A DNA stretch of 64,000 nucleotides, taken from the NCBI RefSeq assembly GCF_030160015.1, contig NZ_BSNN01000002.1:310001-374000 (forward strand), given 5' to 3'. Source of the DNA: Amylibacter marinus (GTDB lineage: Bacteria; Pseudomonadota; Alphaproteobacteria; Rhodobacterales; Rhodobacteraceae). Below the pieces are notes generated by a model, which was given only the letters and a program-made list of their open reading frames with translations, was not told the DNA's origin and ran no database searches. Made by a program: the position numbers and the translations under genes. Below are positions 571 to 23,852 of this stretch, piece after piece. Position 1 is the stretch's first letter. Every line of letters starts with the position of its first letter.

Positions 571-575
571 AATAA

Positions 576-659
576 TCCGTCGGGGGGCCCATCGTGGCTG
601 AGAGGTGCATGCACCGACCCGTCGAACCTGATCCGGATAACACCGGCGTAGGGAACGGG
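576..659 (+). promoter_or_regulatory. TPP (THI-element) riboswitch aptamer
   Basis: The hallmark CTGAGA lies at 598-603. The second conserved block runs from ACCCGTCGAACCTGATCCGG through GATAACACCGGCGTAGGGAA (617-655). P1 is closed by CCGT (577-580) with ACGG (655-658). This is the universal thiamine pyrophosphate sensor and fits the thiamine genes that follow directly. The GTG at 664 lies at the 3' edge of the aptamer and is not used as a start. Confidence 0.95.
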
Positions 660-695
660 TATTGTGCAAAAGGCACGCAGTCCTTTTCCAACGTT

Positions 696-9128: not shown

Positions 9129-9168
9129 TGTGATATACATCACTGTGTATTTGCGCATATTTTACTAT
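9129..9168 (+). promoter_or_regulatory. Promoter with Crp/Fnr-type operator for the mini-membrane-protein genes
   Basis: TGTGA-TATACA-TCACT (9129-9144) matches the Crp consensus TGTGA-N6-TCACA in 9 of 10 positions; its core GTGAT-N4-ATCAC also resembles Fnr-type boxes. A -10 hexamer TACTAT lies at 9163-9168 with no -35 match. The operator centre is about 38-41 bases before the expected start (near 9175), the class II activator position. A Crp/Fnr-family activator is therefore likely. The regulator itself is not in the window. Confidence 0.6.
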
Positions 9169-9176
9169 AGTGACCC

Positions 9177-9195
9177 AGCCCAAATAGGTTGGGCT
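9177..9195 (+). promoter_or_regulatory. Stem-loop at the very 5' end of the small-protein mRNA
   Basis: AGCCCAA (9177-9183) pairs with TTGGGCT (9189-9195) around a 5-base loop. It begins within a few bases of the predicted transcription start and is followed by TATTTTGGGGGATC, the last part of which is the ribosome site of the first small gene. A 5'-terminal hairpin of this kind usually protects mRNA from decay; attenuation is the alternative. Confidence 0.45.
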
Positions 9196-9212
9196 TATTT
9201 TGGGGGATCTTG

Positions 9213-9377
9213 ATGGAAAGAATTTTGGTGGCGGGAATGATCATGATCCCGATTGTAATGTTTGTGGCCTATATGGGCGAAAATGTTATGGGCGATGCCA
9301 ATACAAAATCCGGCACTAGCAAAAATGGCGTGAAATCTGCGGTTTCTGCGGCGGGCAATGCCGCTAATTGGAACTAG
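9213..9377 (+). CDS. Small membrane protein, first of three tandem paralogues (54 aa)
   Basis: Starts MERILVAGMIMIPIVMF, a hydrophobic segment of about 17 residues with a central proline (Pro13), followed by a polar tail rich in Asn, Ser, Gly and Ala. The tail reads NVMGDANTKSG after the membrane segment. ATG 9213 has TGGGGGAT upstream; an earlier in-frame start at 9189 overlaps the 5' hairpin and is not shared by the paralogues. The positive residue at position 3 predicts N-terminus inside and tail outside. I do not recognise a family. The next two genes share the pattern M-x-(R/K)-(I/V)-L-x-x-G-x-I-x-x-P. Confidence 0.75.
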   Translation: MERILVAGMIMIPIVMFVAYMGENVMGDANTKSGTSKNGVKSAVSAAGNAANWN

Positions 9378-9407
9378 GCTCACTGGCTATTTAAACAGGA
9401 GAATAAG

Positions 9408-9569
9408 ATGCAAAAAGTACTGGTAATTGGAATGATCGTGATCCCGCTGGTTATGTTCCTGGCGCTGTTTGGAAACCGGATCACCACAAATACCCAAACA
9501 AATGCAGAGTCTGCCAAAACAAAAACCGATAGCCTAGCCACGGCTGCCGCGCGGCAGTGGAGCTTCTAG
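9408..9569 (+). CDS. Small membrane protein, second of three tandem paralogues (53 aa)
   Basis: Starts MQKVLVIGMIVIPLVMFLAL with the same hydrophobic segment and Pro13 as its neighbours. The tail RITTNTQTNAESAKTKTDS is rich in Thr and Asn. The ribosome site AGGAG (9397-9401) lies 6 bases before ATG 9408. The gap after the first gene is 30 bases. The TNTQTN motif of the tail recurs as TDSQTN in the third paralogue. Function unknown. Confidence 0.78.
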   Translation: MQKVLVIGMIVIPLVMFLALFGNRITTNTQTNAESAKTKTDSLATAAARQWSF

Positions 9570-9581
9570 AAAGGAGCCGAA

Positions 9582-9746
9582 ATGAGCAAAGTATTAAGCA
9601 TCGGGGTTATTTCTCTGCCGCTGATTTTACTGCTGGGATATATGGCAAAAAATGTCGTTACCGATTCTCAAACCAATGGGGCCAACGTCGAAACCAACGG
9701 CCAAAGCTTTATGGATCAGGTGAACAACAACAAATCCCTGCAATAA
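9582..9746 (+). CDS. Small membrane protein, third of three tandem paralogues (54 aa)
   Basis: Starts MSKVLSIGVISLPLILLLGY and continues AKNVVTDSQTNGANVE. The strong ribosome site AAGGAG (9571-9576) and a 12-base gap from the second gene make translation convincing. All three proteins have nearly identical length and layout, which argues for duplication followed by divergence of the tails. Possible roles are subunits of a small hetero-oligomeric membrane assembly, or regulators of a larger membrane protein; the sequence does not decide. The next gene is rnd, 82 bases downstream. Confidence 0.78.
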   Translation: MSKVLSIGVISLPLILLLGYMAKNVVTDSQTNGANVETNGQSFMDQVNNNKSLQ

Positions 9747-21533: not shown

Positions 21534-21848
21534 ATGAGCACCTTTGATGACCGTGGCGATGCATTTGAAAATAAATTCGCCCATGACGCAGAGTTAAAGT
21601 TCAAAGTCGAGGCGCGACGCAACAAATTGCTGGGTCTATGGGCGGCTGGGCTATTAGGCAAGGTCGGTGATAGCGCAGATGCCTACGCCGTAGAGGTGGT
21701 CAAAGCCGATTTCGAAGAGGCCGGTGACGAGGATGTATACCGCAAGGTTGCAGGTGATCTAGCTGACAAAGTCTCCGAAGAGGACATTCGCGCCAAAATG
21801 ATTGCATTTATGGCCGATGCCAAAACCCAGATTATGAACGAAAGCTGA
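21534..21848 (+). CDS. F1Fo-ATPase inhibitor subunit zeta (DUF1476)
   Basis: A 104-residue helical protein. The start MSTFDDRGDAFENKFAHD and the ARRNKLLGLWAAGLLG segment are typical of the alphaproteobacterial zeta subunit, which blocks ATP hydrolysis by F1 much as mitochondrial IF1 does. The inhibitory N-terminal helix is present. AGGAGAG precedes ATG 21534. The gene stands alone, divergent from purC, and not near atp genes. Confidence 0.9.
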   Translation: MSTFDDRGDAFENKFAHDAELKFKVEARRNKLLGLWAAGLLGKVGDSADAYAVEVVKADFEEAGDEDVYRKVAGDLADKVSEEDIRAKMIAFMADAKTQIMNES

Positions 21849-21849
21849 A

Positions 21850-21986
21850 GATAAGAGGGGTAGGCCTAAACCTACCCCCAAAAAACATGTGAATACGAGG
21901 ACAAACACGCACGCCCGAGAAAATACCCCCAAGGTTTAAAACCCTGTCATAGCCACGATTTGAAAATACTTTTGTCAAAAGGTGTA
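21850..21986 (-). ncRNA. sRNA candidate A, first of three tandem homologous units
   Basis: Read on the minus strand, this unit has a CTATAG -10 element (21998-21993), the block ACACCTTTT, then TATTTTCAAATCGT, then ACCTTGGG and GTGCGTGTTTG, and ends in the hairpin GGGGTAGG/CCTACCCC (21856-21880) followed by CTCTTATCTT, a weak T-rich tail. The same ordered blocks occur in units B and C at spacings of 227 and 234 bases. No open reading frame of note exists on either strand. Length about 135 bases. Confidence 0.6.
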
Positions 21987-22082
21987 AACCCACTATAGAA
22001 ACAGTATGTGGATTAAAGAGTGAGAAACATCACCCTGTGGCCATGTTTACTTAACAAATCGTAAATACATAGTTAACGGCAT

Positions 22083-22110
22083 AAAAAAAGGCAGGCTAGA
22101 CGCCTGCCTT
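22083..22110 (-). terminator. Intrinsic terminator of sRNA candidate B
   Basis: On the minus strand AAGGCAGGC-GTCTA-GCCTGCC is followed by eight T's. There is no T-run in the plus direction, so it fixes the direction of transcription as minus. Confidence 0.88.
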
Positions 22111-22213
22111 AAGAACTGTGTTAACCCAGAAACTAACACGCATGCTTGGATTTATAATCCCAAGGTTTCCCCTGCTGAGCAACGATTTGAAAATGCTTTG
22201 GTTGAAAGGTGTG
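22083..22213 (-). ncRNA. sRNA candidate B, second of three tandem homologous units
   Basis: Minus-strand order: -10-like TATTAA (22224-22219), ACACCTTT, CATTTTCAAATCGT, a hairpin CTTGGGATT-ATA-AATCCAAG (22164-22145, one bulge), GCATGCGTGTTAG, then a strong intrinsic terminator. It shares TTTTCAAATCGT exactly with unit A. The hairpin has a counterpart in unit C with different bases but the same pairing, which suggests conserved RNA structure. The ACACCTTT block is complementary to AAAGGTGT, a Shine-Dalgarno-like sequence. Confidence 0.68.
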
Positions 22214-22311
22214 GGATTTTAATACGCTGATATATCATCTATATATGTGATTATTGTCACTATATTGAAAGATTGGTTTTTTACGCTCTGCTCTACCTCT
22301 AAGATAGGACC

Positions 22312-22342
22312 ATAAAAAAAGGCAGACCGAAGCCTGCCTTTT
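22312..22342 (-). terminator. Intrinsic terminator of sRNA candidate C
   Basis: On the minus strand AAAAGGCAGGC-TTCGG-TCTGCC is followed by T-rich sequence (eight T's). The terminator stem is nearly the same sequence as in unit B, in line with duplication. Confidence 0.88.
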
Positions 22343-22452
22343 GAAACGAAACCAACAAGAAAGTAACACGCAAACTCGAGTTTATAACTCCAAGACCGAA
22401 ATCTTGTCCTGCCAGTCCACTTAAAATAGCCTAAGTAAAAAGGTGTAACCCC
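22312..22452 (-). ncRNA. sRNA candidate C, third of three tandem homologous units
   Basis: Minus-strand order: ACACCTTTTTAC, CTATTTTAAGTGG, a hairpin CTTGGAGTT-ATA-AACTCGAG (22394-22375, one bulge), TTTGCGTGTTACTTT, then a strong terminator. It is the most diverged copy in the middle block but keeps ACACCTTT, TTATAA and GCGTGTTA. It lies about 100 bases after the end of purB on the same strand. The start near 22452 is set by analogy with units A and B. Confidence 0.65.
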
Positions 22453-22547
22453 TACCTAGGTACTAAATTGTTAACTTAAAGTGACGTTTGATACTTTTCT
22501 TAAACTTTCTCACTTTTGTGCGCAGGCATGTGATGGTCTGCCTTGTT

Positions 22548-23852
22548 TCAGCCCTTAAATACGCGACCGAAAATCGTGTCTACATGCTTGGTGTGATACT
22601 CAAGGTCAAATTTCTCTTCGATCTCCGCCTCTGACATCACCGCCATCACATCCGCATCGTTCTTCAATTCGGTCATGAAATCAGCACCCTGTTCCCAAAC
22701 ACGCATCGCATTGCGCTGAACCAGCTTGTAGCTGTCCTCGCGGCTGACGCCCTTCTGAGTAAGGGCCAGCAGCACACGTTGTGAATGCACCAAGCCGCTG
22801 AATTTGTTCATGTTGGCAATCATGTTGTCAGGATAGATCACAAGGTTTTCAATCACCATGGTCAGACGGGCCAAGGCAAAATCCAATGTGATCGTCGCAT
22901 CTGGGCCAATGTTGCGCTCAACAGATGAATGCGAGATATCGCGCTCATGCCACAGCGCCACGTTTTCCATCGCAGGCACCACCGCCATACGCACCAAACG
23001 TGCCAAACCTGTTAGATTTTCTGTCAGCACAGGATTGCGCTTGTGCGGCATGGCTGACGAGCCTTTTTGACCCTTAGAGAAAAACTCCTCTGCCTCCAAC
23101 ACCTCGGTGCGCTGCATGTGGCGAATTTCGGTTGATACGTTTTCAATAGAGCTGGCCACAACACCAAGAGCCGCGAAAAACGCCGCATGACGATCGCGCG
23201 GGATCACTTGGGTCGAAATCGGCTCGATCTCAAGCCCCAGCTTGGCACAGACATGCTCTTCCACCGCAGGGTCGATATTGGCAAATGTGCCAACCGCACC
23301 AGAAATCGCACCCGTGGCGATCTCTTTGCGGGCTTTCTTCAGGCGATTCAGGTTGCGATCCATTTCCGCATAGAATCGCGCAAACGTTAGACCCATGGTG
23401 GTAGGCTCGGCATGGATACCATGGCTGCGCCCAATGCGAATGGTGTATTTATGCTCCTCTGCGCGCCGCTTAAGGGCGGCCAGCAATTTCTCCGTATCCG
23501 CAATCAGCAGATCCGCCGCCTTGACCAATTGTACATTGAAACAGGTGTCCAAAACATCAGAAGAGGTCATGCCCTGATGCACAAAGCGGGCCTCTTCATT
23601 GCCAATGATTTCGGCCAGATGCGTCAAAAATGCAATCACATCATGCTTGGTTACCGCCTCGATCTCGTCGATACGCGCCACATCAAATTCCACATCCTTA
23701 GCCTTCCATACGGCCGCAGCACTCTCCTTGGGGATAACCCCCAGATCGGCCTGCGCATCACAGGCGTGGGCCTCGATGTCATACCAAATGCGGAACTTGG
23801 ATTCGGGCGACCAAATAGCAACCATTTCAGGGCGGGAATAACGTGGAATCAT
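22548..23852 (-). CDS. purB: Adenylosuccinate lyase
   Basis: A 434-residue fumarase-superfamily lyase that splits SAICAR and adenylosuccinate. Signature SSAMPHKRNPVLTENL carries the flexible loop serines. TSSDVLDTCFNVQL and GRSHGIHAEPTTMG hold the substrate and the catalytic His. Normal length for the short bacterial type. It lies 74 bases after znuB on the same strand, but probably has its own promoter. A second step of the same purine pathway (purC) is encoded 1.2 kb away beyond the sRNA block. Confidence 0.96.
   Translation of the reverse strand: MIPRYSRPEMVAIWSPESKFRIWYDIEAHACDAQADLGVIPKESAAAVWKAKDVEFDVARIDEIEAVTKHDVIAFLTHLAEIIGNEEARFVHQGMTSSDVLDTCFNVQLVKAADLLIADTEKLLAALKRRAEEHKYTIRIGRSHGIHAEPTTMGLTFARFYAEMDRNLNRLKKARKEIATGAISGAVGTFANIDPAVEEHVCAKLGLEIEPISTQVIPRDRHAAFFAALGVVASSIENVSTEIRHMQRTEVLEAEEFFSKGQKGSSAMPHKRNPVLTENLTGLARLVRMAVVPAMENVALWHERDISHSSVERNIGPDATITLDFALARLTMVIENLVIYPDNMIANMNKFSGLVHSQRVLLALTQKGVSREDSYKLVQRNAMRVWEQGADFMTELKNDADVMAVMSEAEIEEKFDLEYHTKHVDTIFGRVFKG

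Follow-up and report, generated by a model that had tools for sequence, protein, structure and literature searches.

Three tandem units of a structured RNA, each preceded by a Crp-like box, between purB and the ATPase-inhibitor zeta gene of Amylibacter marinus

The window analysed here is a 64,000-nucleotide stretch of the Amylibacter marinus genome. Three homologous units, C (22446-22314), B (22212-22083) and A (21985-21853), lie on its minus strand between purB (adenylosuccinate lyase, 22548-23852, minus strand), which is the upstream neighbour in most, not all, genomes that carry the RNA described below, and the gene for ATPase inhibitor subunit zeta (PF07345, 21534-21848, plus strand), which converges on the RNA genes. 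The unit starts are 231 and 230 bases apart, in agreement with the spacing of about 230 bases proposed in a first-pass annotation of this DNA, and the blocks listed there do recur in order, one of them diverged in C. ACACCTTT and GCGTGTT are present in all three units, TTTTCAAATCGT is retained in A and B and diverged in C, and TTGG..TTATAA matches exactly in B and C, with TTGGGGGTATTTT at that place in A. Mean column identity in the alignment of the three units (A1) is 67%, and pairwise identity over the RNA part is 64.4% (C-B), 63.8% (B-A) and 51.1% (C-A); the duplication is therefore not recent, and no assembly echo. A DNA search of the genome found the three-unit locus at one place only. 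A protein-coding reading of the units was discarded: no conserved start was seen, small indels are many, and changes are compensatory. Elsewhere in the window, a TPP riboswitch at 571-671 (plus strand, 83.8 bits) is the only Rfam match at threshold.

Each unit has a promoter-like region of its own, which for unit C reaches 22494, and is closed by a predicted minus-strand terminator; all features that follow are on the minus strand. Upstream of unit C lies the palindrome GTATCAAACGTCAC (22481-22494), a Crp-like box with a degenerate left half. The predicted 5' end of its RNA, ACACCTTTTTACTTAGG (22430-22446), was placed from the spacing of box and -10 hexamer, and is followed by a four-way junction of helices P1-P4 with the P4 loop UUGCGUGUU (22350-22417; match to covariance model R2, below, and minimum-energy fold) and by a predicted intrinsic terminator (22314-22342). 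In unit B, the Crp-like box GTGACAATAATCAC (22247-22260) stands 22 nt upstream of TATTAA; the putative 5' end is ACACCTTTCAACC (22200-22212), the junction, with GAAA in the P2 loop and UGCGUGU in the P4 loop, was located by its R2 match (22120-22183), and the predicted terminator spans 22083-22110. In unit A, the box GTGATGTTTCTCAC (22020-22033) stands 22 nt upstream of TATAGT, with a putative 5' end ACACCTTTTGACAAAAG (21969-21985), a junction with the P4 loop UGCGUGUU (21889-21956; R2 match and minimum-energy fold) and a predicted terminator at 21853-21879. The strong and nearly equal terminators of B and C had already been noticed in the first pass; that of A, which is different, is added here. 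The terminator search placed the three at 22342-22317 (C), 22110-22088 (B) and 21879-21856 (A).

A DNA search in the genus (GTDB) revealed a clear single unit at the same place in one relative (G007). Stretches downstream of purB were inspected in 29 genus genomes and at a few named loci, and 18 loci with a like unit, G007 among them, formed the alignment set. Mixed MAFFT alignments (A3-A6) misplaced the helices and were kept out of the models. A covariance model built from five similar relatives (R1) matched more diverged relatives in 186 kb of sequence at E values of 5e-7 to 0.04. A second model (R2), built from 16 relatives with the window excluded, recovered unit C (22448-22349, 35.7 bits, E = 7.4e-6), unit A (21987-21886, 35.6 bits, E = 8e-6) and unit B (22214-22117, 31.0 bits, E = 9.6e-5), and gave no match beyond these three across the 64-kb window up to E = 10. 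As a model devoid of window sequences finds exactly the three units, their resemblance to the relatives is not due to chance. A sequence-only model from the alignment of R2 scored 24.2 bits for C and 14.4 bits for B and missed A; these lower scores indicate that structure carries part of the signal, with the reservation that the two models may differ in search behaviour besides structure. R1 gave 0 matches in 394 family genomes, a search made uninformative by stricter filters, under which the window genome and G001 were missed as well.

The consensus fold is a compact four-way junction (cloverleaf) with almost no linkers between its helices. P1 has about 9-11 pairs and is followed, after 0-2 linker nucleotides, by P2, an arm of variable length often capped by a GNRA-like loop. 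The 4-5 pairs of P3 enclose an AU-rich loop, and those of P4, about 4-6 in number, a loop with GCGUGU, after which the strand runs back into P1 over 0-1 nucleotide. The shared blocks are thus parts of one four-way junction, which extends the account of the first-pass annotation, where neither this junction nor the putative Crp-type promoter appears. The hairpin containing TTATAA, for which a pairing kept with different bases had been claimed, corresponds to P3 (GGAUU-AUA-AAUCC in B, GAGUU-AUA-AACUC in C). The covariation in related genomes that was expected of a conserved RNA is present on all modelled pairs: 28 of 28 show two-sided changes across 25 distinct sequences, the three window units included. 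For a candidate RNA, support of this kind on all modelled pairs is unusually good. Of 669 cells, 92.1% are paired, against 38-44% in slid controls, and the covariation score is 0.79 against 0.11-0.16. These pair counts come from alignments fitted to the model and thereby biased towards it; the slid controls and the held-out matches indicate that this fitting is not the whole cause of the pairing signal.

By our reading, minimum-energy folding, which uses no alignment, gives the cloverleaf in 15 of 21 sequences. It is absent from the other six (window unit B, L100, L102, L104, L105 and L109), three of which (L104, L105, L109) adopt it once the GCGTG loop is held open. In the isolated junction of unit B the cloverleaf lies 1.1 kcal/mol above the minimum, and it is not the minimum in a longer context either. 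Relative to shuffled sequences, C is clearly stabilised (z = -3.8), A and B only moderately so (z = -2.0 and -1.9). We count the six non-cloverleaf folds and the moderate values of A and B against the interpretation preferred below. The columns of the P4 loop and the AU columns of the P3 loop are kept in 23-25 of 25 sequences; as the P4 loop is offset by two columns in two rows of the alignment, GCGUGU itself is present in all 25. The 5' block is less well kept, being altered in about ten of the 25. A pairing of the 5' RYAC with GUGU of the P4 loop fits 89% of cells with no two-sided changes; since the GUGU loop is invariant, this pairing stays at the level of an idea.

Neither the region of the units nor 20 relative loci matched any Rfam 15 family at the gathering threshold, 6S included. 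At relaxed thresholds, nine matches fell within 21840-22560, all far below their cut-offs. Among them, SorY of Rhodobacter (RF02651), a small RNA from the same order as the window organism, reached 14.6 bits in unit C against a gathering score of 111; the alphaproteobacterial ar9 (21.3 of 45 bits) and the Bacteroidetes FopS (22.8 of 56 bits) matched unit B mostly at the terminator, and the unit is a member of neither. The structured RNA family of the units has no entry in Rfam 15 and is of a known general kind. CyaR of enterobacteria is a CRP-activated, stand-alone sRNA with its own terminator; we know of no four-way junction in it, and the window RNA has no Rfam match at threshold. StsR was considered as a further candidate; its published description, as far as accessible, gives neither a location nor a sequence for comparison. 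Searches of the open-access literature returned nothing on an Amylibacter small RNA or on a Rhodobacterales sRNA associated with purB, and for a four-way-junction sRNA in Alphaproteobacteria only a review on mitochondria; the main texts of sRNA papers on R. pomeroyi and P. denitrificans, as far as accessible, name neither purB nor DUF1476.

Of the 33 genus genomes searched with R2, 24 have the RNA at an E value of up to 1 per genome, with one match in each except the window genome, where two matches passed in the genus-wide search and the search of the window shows three. The weakest matches (G014, E = 0.005; G030, E = 0.01) both adjoin the zeta gene and have the box upstream. Most likely a single ancestral RNA gene was triplicated in the lineage of the window. 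Four genomes (G013, G017, G019, G030) have the RNA by the zeta gene, with the box kept, and a gene other than purB upstream: by our reading the end of a peroxiredoxin-like frame in G019, an lpdA-like frame in G017, and an lpdA-like together with a permease-like frame in G013 and G030. With purB not the upstream gene in these four, the zeta gene is the more constant neighbour. Among the nine genus genomes in which the RNA was not detected, three (G008, G021, G024) are assemblies of 71-84% completeness. Forty named genomes, picked from relatives of the zeta gene, yielded the RNA in three: Amylibacter ulvae (L074), an uncultured Amylibacter (L015) and L048. Likewise, in 80 named zeta loci, scanned over 900 nt downstream of the gene (5 of the 80 being shorter), the box occurs in four and box plus GCGTGT in three, the three Amylibacter-type ones; GCGTGT alone, without the box, occurs in six more. 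In an AT-rich clade (L089-L092 and L094, from G022, G004, G023, G025 and G024) a purC-like start directly follows purB; neither the RNA nor a Crp-type gene was found in these five genomes.

Of the 25 units, 24 have the box GTGA-N6-TCAC in the 140 nt that precede them, window unit C being the exception. Its distance to the model start is 29-32 nt in 19 of the 24 boxed units and differs in five. In the window, -10-like hexamers follow TCAC by 22 nt in each unit (TATAGT in A, TATTAA in B, TAGGTA in C), a spacing that places the predicted box centre at about -41.5. A centre at -41.5 is the place of class II Crp sites. Judged as candidate Crp-dependent class II promoters, A and B present an exact box and C half a box, with a predicted start site. 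A TA-hexamer at exactly 22 nt past the box is found in only 7 of 25 units; this, the five deviating distances to the model start and the half-conserved box of unit C count against the preferred interpretation. The palindrome of unit C fits the core site of Clr of S. meliloti, GTNNCNNNNGNNAC, which is looser than the GTGA box of the window units. In that species, according to PMC10127613, where promoter classes are also discussed, Clr directly induces the sRNA SMelC181, of unknown function, and 8 of 20 confirmed genes of its regulon encode small proteins. SMelC181 is the nearest precedent for the window RNA, being an alphaproteobacterial sRNA under a Crp-like, cyclic-nucleotide-bound activator, as proposed for the window units.

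Crp-like boxes also occur away from the units. In the window, GTGATATACATCAC lies 22 nt before TATAGT (9130-9746, plus strand) and precedes three tandem, similar-looking small membrane-type proteins of 54, 53 and 54 aa (9213-9746), which matched no Pfam family at its cut-off. The cluster is probably a second target of the Crp-type regulator, and it parallels the small-protein genes among the Clr targets. A perfect AGTGATATTTATCACT stands about 100 nt before a 107-aa frame in G000 (L144 1501-1516; G000 C2:831094). Two pairs of relatives (L297/L314 in G009 and G031; L301/L304 in G013 and G017) retain Crp-like class II sites, ahead of what we read as a ThyX-like gene and ahead of a 431-aa frame. 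With one mismatch allowed, the box pattern is not enriched genome-wide (9 sites per strand; reversed control, 11), which again counts against the preferred interpretation. In its class II form (21-23 nt spacer) it totals, by our sums, 55 sites against 24 in the 22 Crp-carrying genomes and 12 against 8 in the 11 that remain; part of the excess is accounted for by the RNA genes and by crp.

Two proteins of the window genome are clear members of the Crp/Fnr superfamily, the FnrL-like L153 and L154; a third match above the cut-off looks to us like a replication-initiation protein. L154, encoded elsewhere in the genome, combines a cyclic-nucleotide domain with HTH_Crp_2, and its helix SSRESVAREM shows the R-E-R pattern known from E. 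coli CRP. All 22 Crp orthologues of the genus retain the recognition-helix stretch (S/T)SRExVAREM. Some Crp-type match exists in 25 of 33 genus genomes and an orthologue at E below 1e-70 in 22, namely in 22 of the 24 genomes with the RNA and in 0 of the 9 without it (Fisher p = 1.4e-6, uncorrected for kinship). The two RNA carriers without an orthologue (G017, G027) are assemblies of 70 and 81% completeness, and the box is retained at their RNA genes. In a PurB tree of 29 genomes, G004 and G022-G025, in which neither RNA nor Crp was found, form a well-supported group nested within the carriers; the placement of G010 and G018, both on long branches, is unsure. The co-occurrence accordingly rests mainly on one clear shared loss, and we count this, together with the incompleteness of three of the nine genomes without the RNA, against the preferred interpretation. 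Three of the remaining 37 named genomes have a weaker relative (E = 1e-45 to 1e-57) and the others distant matches or none; the RNA is in none of the 37. An independent link between protein and site comes from the RNA's own GTGA-N6-TCAC box, which lies upstream of crp itself in 11 of the 22 orthologues. Upstream of the window genome's own crp the exact box was not found, a further point against the preferred interpretation. Another palindrome-like pattern, CGAC...GTCG, lies upstream of crp in four loci (L190, L191, L194, L205) and is perhaps the site of another regulator.

The first-pass annotation had regarded the units as a duplicated family of trans-acting sRNAs that could mask ribosome sites through ACACCTTT. 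The family is indeed non-coding and its fold conserved; trans-action and masking stay conjectural, and the 40 candidate target sites inspected yielded no convincing conserved target. Within seven genomes, AAAAGGTG near ATG gave, by our sums, 249 matches against 101 for the reversed pattern, a control that is not fair because AAAAGGTG resembles a ribosome site. The matches listed are 150, from four of the seven genomes (59, 28, 23 and 40). Forty sites were inspected, all 25 distinct places of G000 and 15 of the 23 of G007, the places of G001 and G020 being left out, and none among the 40 is a convincing conserved target. By our reading, some lie at likely starts, of rpoB-like and DegT-type aminotransferase-like genes in G000 and of a nuoD-like gene in G007; these were set aside as unproven, none having been seen in both genomes. 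One site is on both lists (G000 C6:7776, G007 C136:2578) and in G000 falls within a long reading frame.

What the computations show is the homology of the units, their structure and conservation, the terminators, the box and the co-occurrence of the regulator. On these we base the view, to which we give a probability of roughly 0.7, that each unit is an independent Crp-activated gene of a structured non-coding RNA acting as a post-transcriptional regulator, triplicated in this lineage. We infer that each unit is transcribed into an RNA of about 130 nt, from the predicted ACACC start to the U-run, and activated at its own class II Crp-type promoter, with the box centre at about -41.5 followed by the -10-like hexamer. 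The RNA would consist of a 5' tail (ACACCUUUU...), the four-way junction and the intrinsic terminator. Its switch is probably a Crp-family activator that binds a cyclic nucleotide, as the predicted nature of the ligand, and that is apparently autoregulated in relatives. Most likely the RNA would act post-transcriptionally, with the 5' tail and GCGUGU of the P4 loop as the exposed elements that would either pair or bind a protein; mRNA pairing and its partners are here a guess.

A tentative alternative, to which we assign a minor share of probability, is that the RNA binds a protein or small ligand through its compact junction and invariant P4 loop, serving like 6S or CsrB as a decoy or scaffold, and does not pair with mRNAs. 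In its favour, conservation is stricter in the junction and in the GCGUGU and AU-rich loops than in the 5' tail, and the 40 inspected AAAAGGTG sites held no convincing pairing target; against it, no known protein site was recognised, the Rfam searches of the units and the 20 relative loci found neither 6S nor any other family at threshold, and a U-rich tail with a terminator is typical of base-pairing sRNAs too. A more elaborate version of the regulated-gene reading, which we think unlikely, is a genus-specific module in which a dedicated, autoregulated cyclic-nucleotide receptor would drive a four-way-junction RNA switched by a pseudoknot and tripled into paralogues. The RYAC-GUGU pairing would then be the closed form of the RNA, in exchange with an open, target-binding one, and the window paralogues, with their separate promoters, would perhaps split targets or adjust dosage.

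The identity of the regulator and the nature of the units themselves can also be disputed. FnrL or another factor in place of the Crp-type protein is rather improbable: the FnrL-like protein is the genome's other clear superfamily member, but the half-site of the box is GTGA, unlike the TTGA of Fnr, the helix of the Crp-type protein has the R-E-R pattern, and half of the orthologues carry the box in front of crp. Slightly less probable still is that the units are a 3' untranslated piece of the purB mRNA and the upstream palindrome the purB terminator. An extended palindrome (AAAGAGTGAC..GTCACTCTTTTTTTT), present in many relatives, looks like an AT-rich terminator; however, A, B and others have lost the T-run and outer stem and kept GTGA-N6-TCAC, the four genomes without purB upstream retain box and RNA, and an identical box precedes crp genes. 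Three diverged copies within one intergenic region could, finally, suggest dispersed DNA repeats, which the first-pass annotation had also considered, or chance hairpins with no RNA function. We hold this to be very improbable in view of the single locus found in the genome, the one copy found per genome in the other carriers of the genus and the two-sided changes on 28 of 28 pairs.

This marine lineage thereby gains a well-supported structured RNA family that is not in Rfam 15. With a probable regulator named, the cyclic-nucleotide network of these bacteria becomes testable, and the triplication offers a natural case of diverging sRNA paralogues.
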